A stretch of DNA of 45,485 bases from Clostridia bacterium. GTDB lineage: Bacteria; Bacillota; Clostridia; Oscillospirales; Acutalibacteraceae. The stretch's first letter is position 1. Each line of letters opens with the position of its first letter. The stretch spans positions 1 through 45,485 of the forward strand of contig JAFODQ010000023.1 of NCBI GenBank assembly GCA_017380615.1, in the 5' to 3' direction. Below are positions 4,534 through 45,340 of this stretch, in pieces. The notes under the pieces were generated by a model. The model worked only from the letters and a program-made list of their open reading frames with translations, did no database searches and had not been told where the DNA came from. The position numbers and the translations under genes are program-made.

Positions 4534-5916
4534 TTAAAGAGCGCCGAAGAAATCCTTCATTTCTGCAGCTCTGCCACAGGTCATAGGGCCTTCTGTGCAT
4601 TTATCAACAAAACAGCTTGGACCATAGAAGTCAAAGATATTTTTGTCAATATTACGCAATTTCTTAAGCATGTCAATTGCGAAATCTCTGATTTCCCACT
4701 GTGCTCTTGTGCAGGAGCGCAGCTTCATAAATAAAAGAAGCTCTCTTGCATTGATTGTTGTAACAATATCAATTGTGTTGCCGCTAAGCTGGATGTATGC
4801 ACAAAGCTTTTCGCTGATTCCAATTTCTTTAAGCTCGTTGTAAAGAGCATTGGTTTTAACAAAAGCTTCACAGAATCTTTCTTTAAGCTCAGGCTTATCC
4901 GCAATTGTCTGAGGGAGGATGTGTCTTGTTCTGTCTGTGAGTGTAAGAGCAGGAATGCCAATGGATTGCATTCTGTGTCTTGCAAAGTGAGTAAGGCAAG
5001 AAAGTGAAACATTGTTAATTCTGAAAGTGAAGGTTGCAGCTTCAAGAGGTCTTTGTCTCTTGGATGAAATAACAGCTTTAATAATTTCACGGCGCTGTGC
5101 TTCATCTTTGATGATTTTATCAATCTGTGCTGTTGGTAGATTACAGTTTTCTACGAGAGCAAAACGAGCAATAGCCTCAGATGCATCGGGGGTGTAGCTC
5201 AATAATTCAACAGCATCCTGTGTTTTAACTAGCTCTTTGTCAGCTGTGTAGTTGAACTGCGGCACATCCTGTTTGCCAGGTCTTCTTGTTTCAAAATCTG
5301 TGAAAATACCGGGAGTGAGCTCTCTCGCTTGTTCGAGAAGGCTTTCACCCAGTGTTTTAAGCTCGGTGAAACTGCTTCCTCTGCCATAAATCATTGCATA
5401 AAGCATATTGATAAGCTCACGGGCATTGAGTGTGCAATAGAAGTTGCTGTAGAGGGAATAGGGGAGAAGGAAACGAGCATCCTCTTTAGGGATACCGGCA
5501 TCAATAAATGCTTCATACTCCTTGTAAAGGTAATCCATGTGATTAATGTATTTGTCGTGGATGGCCTTTGATTCAAAGTGTGGCACATAATAGCCGAGCT
5601 TTGCGAAATCAACATATCGCCTTGATTTAACAGTAAATGAAGCAAGACGGAATTCGATAACAAACTGCTCAACAAGGACAGAAACATTCTGGAATGCGAG
5701 GTTGAAAACAGTGTGCTCAAGTGTTGATGTGTGACCTGAACGGGTAACCTTTGATATTAAGTTTGCATTTTTTGCAGCATCCTTGGAAAGCTCAAGTATT
5801 TCAAGTGCTGTACCGGGTTGGGTTGATATTCTGCCCGATGCCGCAGGTATTCTTTCACCGGTATCTGTAAGACCGATAATAATTGCCTTTGAGTTAATGT
5901 TGAATTCGTTGTCCAT
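4534..5916 (-). CDS. thyX: Tandem ThyX-like (FAD-dependent thymidylate synthase family) protein
   Basis: 460 residues, twice the usual ThyX length of about 220-250. Two ThyX-like copies are visible. Copy 1 has HTSTLEH at 62-68, then QF and EFRLASFTVKSRRY at 88-101: against the RHRxxSxNxxSxR signature it keeps the last Arg of RHR, both Ser and the final Arg but not RH or Asn. Copy 2 has RHRMQS at 313-318 but loses the N..S.R part, and keeps the canonical C-terminal NARELLLFMKLR and AQWEIR segments. The tail has a Cys pattern, GPSC..(5)..C..(6)..C. ThyX makes dTMP from dUMP using methylene-tetrahydrofolate and FAD. Here activity is plausible but unproven. Start is set by a GGGGGT site. Confidence 0.8.
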   Translation of the reverse strand: MDNEFNINSKAIIIGLTDTGERIPAASGRISTQPGTALEILELSKDAAKNANLISKVTRSGHTSTLEHTVFNLAFQNVSVLVEQFVIEFRLASFTVKSRRYVDFAKLGYYVPHFESKAIHDKYINHMDYLYKEYEAFIDAGIPKEDARFLLPYSLYSNFYCTLNARELINMLYAMIYGRGSSFTELKTLGESLLEQARELTPGIFTDFETRRPGKQDVPQFNYTADKELVKTQDAVELLSYTPDASEAIARFALVENCNLPTAQIDKIIKDEAQRREIIKAVISSKRQRPLEAATFTFRINNVSLSCLTHFARHRMQSIGIPALTLTDRTRHILPQTIADKPELKERFCEAFVKTNALYNELKEIGISEKLCAYIQLSGNTIDIVTTINARELLLFMKLRSCTRAQWEIRDFAIDMLKKLRNIDKNIFDFYGPSCFVDKCTEGPMTCGRAAEMKDFFGAL

Positions 5917-5952
5917 TTAATTACCCCCACTGAATTCAATAAGTTTTAATGT

Positions 5953-23121: not shown

Positions 23122-23158
23122 AAAAAGCTCATTTACTGAAAAGTAAATGAGCTTTTTT
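23122..23158. terminator. Bidirectional terminator with GAAA loop
   Basis: A perfect 16-bp stem (23122-23137 with 23142-23157) around a GAAA tetraloop, with A run on one side and T run on the other. It ends the zinc-ribbon gene and, on the other strand, the 6S RNA transcript. Confidence 0.9.
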
Positions 23159-23160
23159 AC

Positions 23161-23347
23161 ATCCCCGCGTGTGCCGGATGCGATAATAGTAACCTGCTTT
23201 CGGCAGGTGGGTGCTCTCTCCGTGGATTCACGCTCCCTTCGTCCACCAAGGAGGTGGGAGGTCTGCAATAGGCCATGGAAGTCCAAGCTCCCTTTTTATT
23301 GACATAGGGTTAGTATTATTCGCAGTTATCGAACACCGCAGGAATAT
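23161..23347 (-). ncRNA. ssrS: 6S RNA (RNA polymerase-binding regulatory RNA)
   Basis: A GC-richer, structured stretch without a reading frame between two genes. On the minus strand it begins near ATATTCCTGCGGTGTTCG and ends CCGGCACACGCGGGGAT. These ends pair to form the closing stem expected of 6S RNA, with the TGCGGTGTTCG element typical of its 5' end. The 3' half has GAGCACCCACCTGC with GCAGGT, a small hairpin found in many 6S RNAs. Length of about 185 nt is normal. A promoter at 23353-23382 places +1 at about 23347, and a terminator follows. 6S RNA holds housekeeping RNA polymerase inactive in stationary phase. The exact ends are estimated. Confidence 0.85.
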
Positions 23348-38190: not shown

Positions 38191-39381
38191 ATGGAAAGAA
38201 AAGTCGGTACTGTATCAAGAGGTATTCGTTGTCCTATTATCCGAGAGGGAGATAATCTTGTTGAAATCACAGTGAACAGTGTTATTGAAGCAGCAGAGAG
38301 CGAGGGCTTTGAGCTCCGTGATCGCGATGTTGTTTCACTTACAGAGTCCATTGTTGCAAGAGCACAGGGTAACTATGCCAAGGTTGAAGATATTGCTGCA
38401 GATGTTAAAGCTAAATTGGGTGGAGGCACAATTGGTGTTATTTTCCCAATATTGTCAAGAAACCGTTTTGCAATTTGTCTTAAGGGTATTGCAATGGGTG
38501 CAAAGAAAGTCGTTCTTATGCTCAGCTATCCAAGCGATGAGGTAGGCAACTCACTCTTGACTTATGATCAGCTTGATGATGCTGGCATTAACCCGTATTC
38601 AGATGTTTTATCATTAGAGAAATACAGAGAGCTTTTCGGTGAGAATAAGCATGAATTTACAGGTGTTGATTATGTTGCTTATTATTCAGATATAATCACA
38701 TCTGCGGGTGCTGAGGTTGAGATTGTTTTCGCAAACCAGGCAAAGACAATTCTTGATTATACTGATTGTGTTCTTACTTGCGATATTCACACAAGAGCAA
38801 GAACAAAGAGGATCCTTAAATCTGCAGGTGCAAAGGTTGTTTGTGGACTTGATGATATTCTCACAGAACCAGTTAACGGTAGTGGATGTAATGAGAAATA
38901 TGGTCTTCTTGGTTCAAATAAATCAACAGAAGATACAATAAAGCTTTTCCCAAGAGAGTGTAAAGACCTTGTTCTTGATATTCAGGATGAGCTTCTCAAG
39001 AGAACAGGTAAGCACATTGAGGTTATGGTTTATGGCGATGGTGCTTTTAAAGATCCTCAGGGTAAGATCTGGGAGCTTGCTGATCCCGTTGTTTCTCCTG
39101 CACACACAGATGGTCTTATAGGTACTCCCAACGAGCTTAAGTTGAAATATCTTGCTGATAATGATTTTGCAGGTCTTTCAGGTGCTGAGCTTAAAGAAGC
39201 AATTTCTAAGAGCATCAAAGAAAAATCAAGTAATCTTGTTGGTAATATGGCTTCTCAGGGTACAACTCCAAGACAGCTTACAGACCTTATTGGTTCACTT
39301 TGTGATCTTACAAGTGGTTCAGGTGATAAAGGTACACCAATCATTCTTGTTCAGGGCTATTTTGATAACTATACAGACTAA
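38191..39381 (+). CDS. Coenzyme F420-0:L-glutamate ligase (CofE)-like protein
   Basis: 396 residues, longer than archaeal CofE (about 250). The N-terminal half has PIIREGDNLVEITVNSV, LRDRDVVSLTESIVARAQGN and an extended LVLDIQDEL..TGKHIEVMVYGDGAFKDP region that match the F420 gamma-glutamyl ligase family. F420 is not expected in this kind of Firmicute, so the true substrate may be another glutamate- or amino-acid-accepting molecule. It lies between tsf and guaA with its own candidate operator. Start follows GTGGTGAG. Confidence 0.78.
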   Translation: MERKVGTVSRGIRCPIIREGDNLVEITVNSVIEAAESEGFELRDRDVVSLTESIVARAQGNYAKVEDIAADVKAKLGGGTIGVIFPILSRNRFAICLKGIAMGAKKVVLMLSYPSDEVGNSLLTYDQLDDAGINPYSDVLSLEKYRELFGENKHEFTGVDYVAYYSDIITSAGAEVEIVFANQAKTILDYTDCVLTCDIHTRARTKRILKSAGAKVVCGLDDILTEPVNGSGCNEKYGLLGSNKSTEDTIKLFPRECKDLVLDIQDELLKRTGKHIEVMVYGDGAFKDPQGKIWELADPVVSPAHTDGLIGTPNELKLKYLADNDFAGLSGAELKEAISKSIKEKSSNLVGNMASQGTTPRQLTDLIGSLCDLTSGSGDKGTPIILVQGYFDNYTD

Positions 39382-39402: not shown

Positions 39403-40383
39403 ATGGAACTTATTAAGCGTCCCGATGATATGAAGAGAATTAACACTATTGAGCTTGCAAATGCTTTTATTGATGAGCAGGTTGCTGCTGTTCGTGCACA
39501 GGTTGGGGATAAAAAAGTTCTTCTTGCTCTTTCGGGCGGTGTTGATTCCTCTGTTGTTGCTGCTCTTCTTATTAAGGCAATTGGTAAACAGCTTATTTGT
39601 GTGCATGTTAACCACGGTCTCATGAGAAAAGGTGAGAGCGAGCAGGTTATTGATGTTTTTGGTAAGCAGCTTGATGCTAACCTTATCTACATTGATGCAA
39701 CTGATCGATTCCTTGATAAACTTGTTGATGTTTCTGATCCTGAAAAGAAACGAAAAATCATCGGCAATGAATTTATCGAGGTATTCAATGAAGAAGCACT
39801 TAAGCTTGAAGGTATTTCATTCCTTGCACAGGGAACAATTTACCCCGATATTCTTGAAAGTGATGGCGTTAAAGCTCACCACAATGTTGGTGGCCTTCCT
39901 GAGGATATGAAGCTTGAGCTTTGTGAGCCGGTTGCTCTTCTTTACAAGGATGAGGTTCGTGTTGTTGGCTCAGCTCTTGGTCTTCCTGATGAAATGGTTT
40001 ATCGTCAGCCATTCCCGGGTCCTGGTCTTGGTGTTCGTTGCCTTGGTGCTATCACACGAGATAGACTTCACGCTCTCAGAGAAGCGGATGCTATTCTCAG
40101 AGAAGAGTTTGATAATGCCGGTCTTGCAGGTAAGGTATGGCAGTATTTTATTGCTGTTCCTGATGTTAAGAGTGTTGGCGTAAAAGATTCAAAACGTTAT
40201 GAAGGTTGGCCGGCAATCATCAGAGCAGTTAACACAACTGATGCTATGAGTGCTACAATTGAAGAGATTCCTTATGCTCTTCTTCATAAGATAACCGACC
40301 GTATAACTCATGAGGTTGAAGGTATCAACCGTGTTCTCTACGATTTAACACCGAAGCCAATCGGTACAATTGAGTGGGAATAA
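39403..40383 (+). CDS. guaA: GMP synthase, ATP-pyrophosphatase subunit only
   Basis: 326 residues. The PP-loop LSGGVDSS (from Ser44) and the C-terminal GMP synthase dimerisation domain (KPIGTIEWE ending) are complete, with FPGPGLGVRCLG in between. The N-terminal glutamine amidotransferase domain normal in bacterial GuaA (about 510 residues) is absent; it begins right at the PP-ATPase. It would use ammonia or a separate glutaminase subunit, as in archaea. No such gene is nearby. The ribosome site CGGAGGT lies 10 bases upstream. The 3' end of guaA is a known landing site for integrative elements. Confidence 0.93.
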   Translation: MELIKRPDDMKRINTIELANAFIDEQVAAVRAQVGDKKVLLALSGGVDSSVVAALLIKAIGKQLICVHVNHGLMRKGESEQVIDVFGKQLDANLIYIDATDRFLDKLVDVSDPEKKRKIIGNEFIEVFNEEALKLEGISFLAQGTIYPDILESDGVKAHHNVGGLPEDMKLELCEPVALLYKDEVRVVGSALGLPDEMVYRQPFPGPGLGVRCLGAITRDRLHALREADAILREEFDNAGLAGKVWQYFIAVPDVKSVGVKDSKRYEGWPAIIRAVNTTDAMSATIEEIPYALLHKITDRITHEVEGINRVLYDLTPKPIGTIEWE

Positions 40384-42705: not shown

Positions 42706-42753
42706 CAATAATAAAGGGTATTAAAGGATTGATTTGGACAAAGGGGGATGTGT

Positions 42754-43725
42754 ATGGCTACCGCATATGAAGGTGACAAGCCTTATATTTTTGTGAGCTA
42801 TTCACATAAAGATAAACGTGAGGTTATGCGTTATATTGACGCATTGGAGGAAAAAGGCTTTCTTGTTTGGTTTGACGGAGGCATAGAGGCCGGTAGTGAG
42901 TGGCCTGAATATATTGCACAGCATCTTGTGGATTCTTCGTGCGTTTTGGCTTTTGTAACATCTGACTTTGTTGAATCTTCTAACTGTAGGCGTGAGCTTA
43001 CTTTTGCTCAGGATCAAGAAAAAGAGCAGCTTGTTGTTTTTTTGAGACCGGAAGATGAATTAAATCTTACTCCAGGACTTAAAATGCAGCTTGGTCATAG
43101 CCAAACTATAAGGCGAGATAATTTTGATTATGAAGATGATTGCATAGAGGCTTTGTGTGCAGCTAAAATAATTGCTGATTGTGTACCTGCTTCTGAATCT
43201 ATAAACCCACACAAGAAACAACCCGAAGAGCCCGTTCTTGAACAGAACAAAGCTTTAAACAAACGATCAAAACGCACCGGATGGATTACTTCGTTCCTTG
43301 AGATGATGTATATTCCATTGAGCTTATGGTTTTCGAATTATTTGTTTGAAAGGGACTTGAGTGTTTGGTGGATGATTATTCTTATGGCGTTACCACACAT
43401 ATTTATCGCTTTATTTAACAAATATGTCTTCTACAAGCCGTTAGCAAAGAAGCTAACACAAGAGCGAGCTAATAAAGATAAATTTGATGATGCTGTTATA
43501 AATGTTATGCTCTTCTTTATTTTATCAACTCTCATTTCAATTGTTGCGTGCGCAGTTACAATTCCTGTTGATAAAGGCTTCTTTATACGTTTGTTAATGA
43601 TGGTTGGTTATAATGTTATTCCGACTCTTGTTGCGGGAGGCATAATATTATACTACGATTCTGTTGATACAGACGATATAGACGATATAATTTATTCTGA
43701 GAATTTATCAGATGATAATCAATGA
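42754..43725 (+). CDS. TIR-domain protein with C-terminal membrane segments
   Basis: 323 residues. Residues 8-140 form a TIR domain: YIFVSYSHKDKREVM at 11-25, a BB-loop-like VWFDGGIEAGSEWPEYI, and SSNCRRELTFA, where Glu81 aligns with the NAD-cleaving Glu of TIR enzymes. A Lys/Pro/Gln-rich linker leads to about four membrane helices (about 190-300) and an acidic tail. TIR domains act in bacterial immunity by degrading NAD or signalling, and membrane-tethered forms exist. A defence role is inferred; no partner gene is adjacent. The ATG at 42754 follows GGGGG with a six-base gap. Confidence 0.85.
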   Translation: MATAYEGDKPYIFVSYSHKDKREVMRYIDALEEKGFLVWFDGGIEAGSEWPEYIAQHLVDSSCVLAFVTSDFVESSNCRRELTFAQDQEKEQLVVFLRPEDELNLTPGLKMQLGHSQTIRRDNFDYEDDCIEALCAAKIIADCVPASESINPHKKQPEEPVLEQNKALNKRSKRTGWITSFLEMMYIPLSLWFSNYLFERDLSVWWMIILMALPHIFIALFNKYVFYKPLAKKLTQERANKDKFDDAVINVMLFFILSTLISIVACAVTIPVDKGFFIRLLMMVGYNVIPTLVAGGIILYYDSVDTDDIDDIIYSENLSDDNQ

Positions 43726-44878: not shown

Positions 44879-45340
44879 TTACTTGCTACCCGTAAACGGG
44901 CCGTATCCACTCATTGTCAATTGGTCACCCATTTGGTCTTCTTTCAGTTGGTTCTGTATATACTCTGCAATTCGGCTTTCATTCTTCCCTACTGTATCTA
45001 CATAGTACCCTTTACACCAAAATTCTCTATTTCGGTATTTGTATTTCAATTCGCCGAATTGCTCATACAGCATTGTACTACTCTTTCCTTTGAGGTAACC
45101 CATAAAGCTTGATACAGCCATTTTCGGTGGTATCTCAACCAACATATGTATATGGTCGGGACACACTTCTGCCTCTAATATTTTGACACCTTTCCACTCG
45201 CAAAGTTGTCTCAAAATTTTACCTATCTCTCTTTTCTTTTGACTGTAAAACACTTTTCGCCTATACTTTGGTGCAAACACTATATGATATTTGCAATTCC
45301 ATTTTGTATGTGATAAACTGTTTATGTCATTCAATCCCAT
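44879..45340 (-). CDS. tnpA: IS200/IS605-family Y1 transposase TnpA
   Basis: 153 residues, full length. LSHTKWNCKYHIVFAPKYRRK at the N-terminus, the HUH metal site at H63-I64-H65 (CPDHIHMLVEIP) and GYYVDTVG with the nucleophile Tyr (112 or 113) are intact. It cuts single-stranded DNA at the element ends. The start ATG is 12 bases from GAAGGAGT, which is longer than usual. A repeat upstream can hide this site (45352-45412). No disruption is seen, so the gene may be active. Confidence 0.93.
   Translation of the reverse strand: MGLNDINSLSHTKWNCKYHIVFAPKYRRKVFYSQKKREIGKILRQLCEWKGVKILEAEVCPDHIHMLVEIPPKMAVSSFMGYLKGKSSTMLYEQFGELKYKYRNREFWCKGYYVDTVGKNESRIAEYIQNQLKEDQMGDQLTMSGYGPFTGSK

Follow-up and report, generated by a model that had tools for sequence, protein, structure and literature searches.

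Ordinary flavin-dependent thymidylate synthases (ThyX) consist of one domain with a length of about 200-260 amino acids. Some bacteria depend on ThyX for growth, and the enzyme is a drug target. Dissecting its mechanism is difficult, since each subunit serves several active sites simultaneously. In the published description of the Mycobacterium tuberculosis enzyme, the active site is built from three subunits. Subunit A contributes the RHR motif and R199, subunit B contributes S71 and R190, and subunit C contributes R87, S105, R107 and the lid residue Y108 (PMC6514825). The symmetry of the ThyX tetramer was given as 222, and an inhibitor partly overlapping the dUMP pocket of the PBCV-1 ThyX was found to contact Q75 and R182 of one monomer as well as S88 and Q89 of the other (PMC3498832). 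R174 was described to activate dUMP, and the mutants S88A, R90A and Y91A showed a slower consumption of the flavin carbinolamine (PMC8316439). The reduced flavin was reported to be contacted by R78 and hydrogen-bonded by S88 (PMC11940539). For the comparison below, the M. tuberculosis residues were transferred to the numbering of Thermotoga maritima ThyX (Tm) by means of spacing and alignments, resulting in positions 78-80 and 174 for role A, 55 and 165 for role B and 70, 88, 90 and 91 for role C.

A ThyX with a domain duplication was mentioned in 2009 for the Chloroflexi, where it was stated to be uncharacterised and the only thymidylate synthase except in Dehalococcoides (PMC3224940). Since a duplicated ThyX is mentioned in this source, the double ThyX as such is already known.

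The analyzed window is a stretch of 45,485 nucleotides from a bacterium of the Clostridia (contig JAFODQ010000023.1). It contains an open reading frame on the minus strand, coding for 460 amino acids with two Thy1/ThyX domains in one chain (Table 1). The Pfam family Thy1 was matched twice by the whole protein (6.1e-73, 245.1 bits; cut-off 24.8), and the NCBIfam model TIGR02170 (thyX) was passed with 182.7 bits at a cut-off of 87.9. With 460 amino acids and two domains the protein exceeds the size of a single-domain ThyX; the solved ThyX chains matched by the window query comprise 216-270 residues, and none is longer than 270. The window copies are 16% identical to each other in the alignment with 40 tandems and singles described below, and the identity to the compared T. 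maritima ThyX fragment is 29% for copy 1 and 25% for copy 2. The gene is solitary in the window. Its neighbours, a transglutaminase/dockerin ORF on one side and an alpha/beta hydrolase ORF on the other, are located on the opposite strand.

Table 1. Features of the tandem thyX gene and further features in the window. Positions refer to the window; Tm, T. maritima ThyX numbering; counts refer to 40 distinct gut-type tandems.
Feature	Position	Strand	Basis or conservation
Tandem (double) thyX gene, 460 aa	4534..5916	-	ORF and translation, two Pfam Thy1 stretches, TIGR02170 thyX
GGGGGT, ribosome-binding-like stretch, 6 bases ahead of ATG (5916)	5923..5928	-	sequence read
Copy 1, Thy1 domain, residues 16-202	5311..5871	-	Thy1 match
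Copy 1 GHTS, residues 61-64 (Tm H53, T55), folate/FAD-phosphate loop	5725..5736	-	H 40/40, S 40/40
Copy 1 EFR, residues 88-90, replaces RHR	5647..5655	-	E 40/40, F 39/40 (S in one)
Copy 1 SRRY, residues 98-101 (Tm S88, R90, Y91), dUMP-binding and lid	5614..5625	-	S, R, Y 40/40
Copy 1 R148 (Tm R147)	5473..5475	-	R 40/40 in copy 1, 0/40 in copy 2
Copy 2, Thy1 domain, residues 237-423	4648..5208	-	Thy1 match
Copy 2 KRQR, residues 286-289, Arg at Tm 53 and 55 (ThyX: His, Ser/Thr)	5050..5061	-	R 39/40 (N in one), R 40/40
Copy 2 RHR, residues 313-315, FAD-binding motif	4972..4980	-	40/40
Copy 2 R400 (Tm R174, dUMP activation)	4717..4719	-	40/40 in copy 2, M/I/A in copy 1; role as described in PMC8316439
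Copy 2 AQWEIR, residues 405-410	4687..4704	-	Q, W, E 40/40
C-terminal Cys cluster C435, C440, C447	4576..4614	-	tail listing, singles and tandems
6S RNA (RF00013)	23158-23347	-	72.9 bits
F420-0:gamma-glutamyl ligase ORF	38191-39381		PF01996
GMP synthase C-terminal (ATP-pyrophosphatase) ORF, 326 aa, directly after the ligase ORF	39403-40383		glutaminase match absent
TIR-domain ORF, domain N-terminal, then stretches hydrophobic by eye	42748-43725		PF13676
IS200-type Y1 transposase ORF	44879-45340	-	PF01797

For the analysis of the catalytic residues, both copies of 40 distinct gut-type tandems were aligned with 57 single ThyX proteins and a fragment of T. maritima ThyX. The tandem fragments of two genomes (G003 and G016) and the tandem of a phage-labelled record (L128) were left out of the 40; the latter shows the same split by eye. 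In copy 1, the residues H53, S/T55, E58, H59, S88, R90, Y91, E144, R147 and R165 were kept in all 40 sequences, with a Ser on position 55 throughout. R78 is replaced by a Glu in 40/40 and H79 by a Phe (39) or a Ser (1), and on the position of R174 a Met (37), an Ile (2) or an Ala (1) was identified. In copy 2, R78, H79, R80, N163, R174, Q180, W181 and E182 were kept in all 40 sequences, as was R165, which is accordingly present in both gut-type copies. H53 of copy 2 is replaced by an Arg (39) or an Asn (1) and S55 by an Arg (40/40). R90, Y91 and R147 were found in none of the 40, and S88 remains a Ser in 22 of them.

The alignment-free count in the same 40 tandems gave RHR in 0/40 of copy 1 and 40/40 of copy 2, and S.RY in 40/40 and 0/40, respectively. 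The whole motif RHRxxSx(4)SxRY within one domain was identified in 111 of 128 singles and in no copy of the 40 gut-type and 19 distant tandems. All motif residues are present somewhere in the chain in 40/40, with RHR in copy 2 and S88, R90 and Y91 in copy 1. Since the split is held in 40/40 distinct gut-type tandems, it is not due to chance; the complementary split between the copies is real and conserved. The counterpart of M. tuberculosis R87 (Tm position 70 by our alignment) is missing from both tandem copies, and T. maritima has an Ile on this position.

These results largely agree with the first-pass annotation of the locus, which had been made from the sequence alone. It had described a ThyX-like protein with two copies and about twice the ThyX length, as is now confirmed by the two Pfam Thy1 matches in 460 amino acids. 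The extent given for the copies (about residues 50-210 and 280-420) was too narrow compared to the Thy1 matches. The motifs had been read correctly in both copies: in copy 1, EFR is found in place of RHR and the later S..S.R part is retained (residues 88-90, S93, S98 and R100), and in copy 2, RHRxxS and AQWEIR are retained (residues 313-315, S318 and 405-410) and N..S.R is lost, S.RY being absent. The Asn of the motif used there (Tm N85) was found to be a Thr or Ile in copy 1, and 31 of 33 singles in one alignment have a Ser on this position. The C-terminal Cys cluster had been considered an additional novelty. It does exist, but ordinary single ThyX proteins of the same order bear the same GPxC..C.EG..CG tail as copy 2, so that this part of the annotation is rejected.

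For the distribution of the tandems, 345 genomes of the order were searched using the window protein as a query (E up to 1e-20), resulting in six tandems including the window's own. Among these are the tandems of G447 (family f26) and of G329 (family f2), the latter with 418 amino acids and a shortened copy 2. Within the order, the open gut tandems are spread over three families and several genera. In a plasmid collection, long relatives were found in Miltoncostaea oceani (WP_217924789.1; 526 aa) and Parabacteroides distasonis (WP_009276148.1; 539 aa). In the matched stretch, both are about 23% identical to the window protein, and neither reaches the TIGR02170 cut-off. They are annotated as FAD-dependent thymidylate synthase; since the annotation simply names a thymidylate synthase, the split is easily missed. 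With the P. distasonis protein as a query (E up to 1e-12), 16 of 398 Bacillota genomes from 8 genera were matched, with open frames of 472-699 amino acids. These 16, the two named proteins and one protein from a viral contig (L210) were analyzed as 19 distant tandems.

In all 19 distant tandems, RHR and R174 were found in copy 2 and S55, S88, R90, Y91 and R147 in copy 1, and the RH of RHR was found in 0/19 of copy 1. For R174 in copy 1 of this class, the loss is not clear from the alignment, and an R174-like residue is possible. R165 was identified in copy 1 of 10 proteins, in copy 2 of 3 and in neither copy of 6. The alignment-free count revealed some strays in the 19 proteins, namely RHR in one copy 1 as well as S.RY in three and GH.S in five of copy 2, all of them off the motif positions. 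Four distant tandems of family f40 (L222, L223, L225 and L226; open frames of 658-699 aa) are rich in Ala, Pro and Gly over long stretches, both in the N-terminal part and in the region separating the copies.

Further candidates were found to be single ThyX proteins. Unfused copy-2-like genes in the families f19 and f2 were rejected, as the motifs of those inspected are complete, which identifies them as ordinary singles. Of 248 loci in a scan of viral contigs with the tandem alignment, 80 were kept, each matched over single-ThyX length; together with L129, these loci yielded 71 distinct single ThyX. Three short ThyX proteins (L087, L090 and L092; frames of 212-251 aa) have HPQ for QWE with RHR and S.RY intact, and look like a separate ThyX sub-family. 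A phage origin of the tandem was rejected as well. It was considered for the record MT835736.1 (L128), which is labelled as a bacteriophage and whose tandem is 53% identical to P0001. In this record, the tandem thyX is located divergent to a thymidylate kinase (Pfam) and the other neighbours appear chromosome-like by eye, so that MT835736.1 is probably a bacterial contig.

The comparison with the published structures supports the view that the residue sets kept and lost by the copies correspond to different subunit roles of one ThyX site. Because the kept residues match the published subunit roles, copy 2 would take role A and copy 1 the roles B and C. On the basis of sequence and genome context, the protein is very likely a functional flavin-dependent thymidylate synthase in which the active site is shared out between two fused ThyX domains. 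The four identical subunits of ordinary ThyX form four sites, each of which is built from three subunits. In the tandem, copy 2 would supply role A with RHR and the dUMP-activating Arg (Tm R174), and copy 1 would supply role C, the loop holding and covering the dUMP (Tm S88, R90 and Y91). Role B, which helps to hold the FAD phosphates, is most likely provided by copy 1 in the gut type. The double ThyX is predicted to be catalytically active as a pseudo-tetramer of two chains with two live and two dead sites. In a 222 tetramer with copy 2 as A and copy 1 as B and C, the fourth position D would be occupied by copy 2. In the dead sites, the Glu of copy 1 (78) would face the Arg of copy 2 (53 and 55), possibly as a salt bridge at the place of the FAD. 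We infer that four identical sites would be impossible in the tandem. Two residues speak against this reading, namely the role-C Arg at Tm 70, which both copies lack (T. maritima likewise has an Ile there), and S88, which is still a Ser in copy 2 of 22 of the 40 tandems.

The composite enzyme might also be arranged differently, with role B taken by copy 2 of the other chain and a site formed by copy 2, copy 1 and copy 2. This would be consistent with the role-B residue R165, which both gut-type copies have and which the Parabacteroides-like proteins have in copy 2 only; with six Bacillota having it in neither copy, the assignment of role B is not universal. His 53 and Ser 55, being intact in copy 1 and replaced by Arg (53 once by Asn) in the gut copy 2, argue against this arrangement and render it rather unlikely.

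A search of the window's genome for thyA and a single thyX had been suggested in the first-pass annotation; in this genome, which is 90.9% complete, neither a Thy1 outside the tandem nor a ThyA match was found. In a family sample of 150 genomes, Thy1 was detected in 108, ThyA in 26, both in one (G096) and neither in 17. For the 20 tandem genomes of this sample, ThyA was found in 0/20 and a further single ThyX in two (G123 and G150), leaving 18 with no other ThyX or ThyA. In the other 130 family genomes, 17 have neither (Fisher p 8e-12, relatedness uncorrected). The search in 21 further genomes of the window's genus revealed no ThyA (0/21), a full tandem in 17, fragments in two (G003 and G016) and nothing in two. 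No Thy1 or ThyA was found in G004 (81% complete) and G020 (98% complete) of the same genus, and G020 has no Pfam thymidine kinase match either. In the genus g121, two genomes (G452 and G470) contain the tandem without ThyA and two others (G141 and G417) ThyA without Thy1. G447 has the tandem and a weak ThyA-family match. In 16/16 of the distant Bacillota genomes ThyA was not found, and the only Thy1 matches were the two in the tandem ORF. For the Pfam thymidine kinase family, 31 of 33 tandem or allied genomes gave no match. Since genomes without any ThyA or ThyX match occur (17 of 150 and G020), a lone ThyA/ThyX candidate is not a proof of function.

A thymidylate-kinase-like ORF adjoins the tandem in at least 11 of 40 loci, always in divergent orientation and with gaps of 76-819 bases between the open frames. 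The 40 loci comprise L128 and 39 distinct tandem loci other than the window; as some of them have only about 1.5 kb of flank, the number is a lower bound. Among the window ORFs, inspected by eye, no such ORF was found beside the window's own tandem. In the single thyX loci of the family, it was identified in 28 of 30 (L037-L066). One neighbour kinase was tested by Pfam, with Thymidylate_kin as the best match and an additional match to dNK (deoxynucleoside kinase), so that some thymidine salvage is possible. The genome context supports the predicted function of the tandem as a synthase.

The first-pass annotation had also offered a derived non-synthase paralogue as an alternative. Such a paralogue would no longer make dTMP but would act on another pyrimidine or only bind a flavin. 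It would fit to the absence of the full signature motif from every single copy, to the further single ThyX in two of 20 tandem genomes and to the 17 of 150 genomes without any ThyA or ThyX match whatsoever. It is made improbable by the genome surveys, in which 18/20 family and 16/16 distant genomes have no ThyA/ThyX candidate besides the tandem, and in which the tandem stands in genus g121 where congeners have ThyA; in addition, the two copies taken together show no variation in the catalytic residues of the roles A and C.

For 15 sequences of the genus, the dN/dS ratio was determined to be about 0.03-0.12 in both copies, using those 14 of 105 pairs in which copy 1 shows the least synonymous change (for one of the 14 pairs, the value of copy 2 was not computable). 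Purifying selection thus acts on both copies. Gene decay or an artefact of the assembly, for which no supporting point was found, can practically be dismissed in view of these ratios and of 40 distinct open tandems in several genera and three families. The initial suggestion of a fused pair with split duties and fewer, asymmetric sites is supported: the residues fit the subunit roles, both copies are under purifying selection and the tandem is the only ThyA/ThyX-type synthase found in its genome.

With regard to one or two fusion events, the phylogenetic trees grouped the gut and distant copies by position, also when the catalytic columns and the tail were removed, with a support of 96/89 for copy 2. 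None of the alternatives was rejected by the AU tests, namely a clade of the gut copies 1 and 2 (p 0.642), gut copy 2 with the Cys-tailed singles (p 0.415) and both gut copies with the Cys-tailed singles (p 0.231); long branches are present. The Cys tail is shared by gut copy 2 and the Cys-tailed singles and is not found in the distant copy 2. It is conceivable, though doubtful, that the double ThyX originated at least twice, the gut type being derived from a Cys-tailed ThyX and the others from a different ThyX. Complementary halves would then have been lost both times in the same order (FAD/RHR in copy 1, dUMP/lid in copy 2), the dead sites of the gut type would be closed by a Glu/Arg salt bridge at the place of the FAD, and half-site flavin thymidylate synthases would be widespread.

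If the proposed division of the active site is true, the FAD-side and dUMP-side duties are located on different domains, and each could be altered alone in a defined site. A symmetric homotetramer would have become an obligate asymmetric one which still carries the thymidylate supply of the lineage. Among the open-licence full-text matches listed, neither the complementary split nor the gut-Clostridia family was found to be described, nor was a role of this family as the sole synthase. The word search in PMC9931769, PMC10733785, PMC9012536, PMC5954106 and PMC4913046 revealed no duplicated or split ThyX.

Compared to T. maritima TM0449 (ThyX, PF02511, TIGR02170), the window protein contains the same domain twice, and the residues of the roles A and C are spread over the copies. 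Unlike in ordinary ThyX, the tandem copies are fused and diverged, and the signature motif is split. The Cys-tailed single ThyX proteins of gut Clostridia and viral contigs have the tail in common with copy 2 but consist of one domain with the whole motif. The proteins of Parabacteroides distasonis, Miltoncostaea oceani and the 16 Bacillota show the same polarity as the gut type, with S88, R90, Y91 and R147 in copy 1 and RHR in copy 2. The double ThyX of the Chloroflexi, compared by its description, has two Thy1 domains in one chain like the window protein; a split active site is not mentioned in the passages on it (PMC3224940). A similar outcome has been described for two unrelated enzymes. 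The relatives of the monomeric dUTPase of herpesviruses are trimers. This dUTPase has about double length, reportedly due to a gene duplication, and forms one catalytic site from the five conserved motifs (PMC8961515). The deoxyhypusine synthase of trypanosomatids is a heterotetramer of a catalytically impaired and an inactive copy (PMC3663545). Its copies are encoded by separate genes and not fused as in the tandem ThyX.
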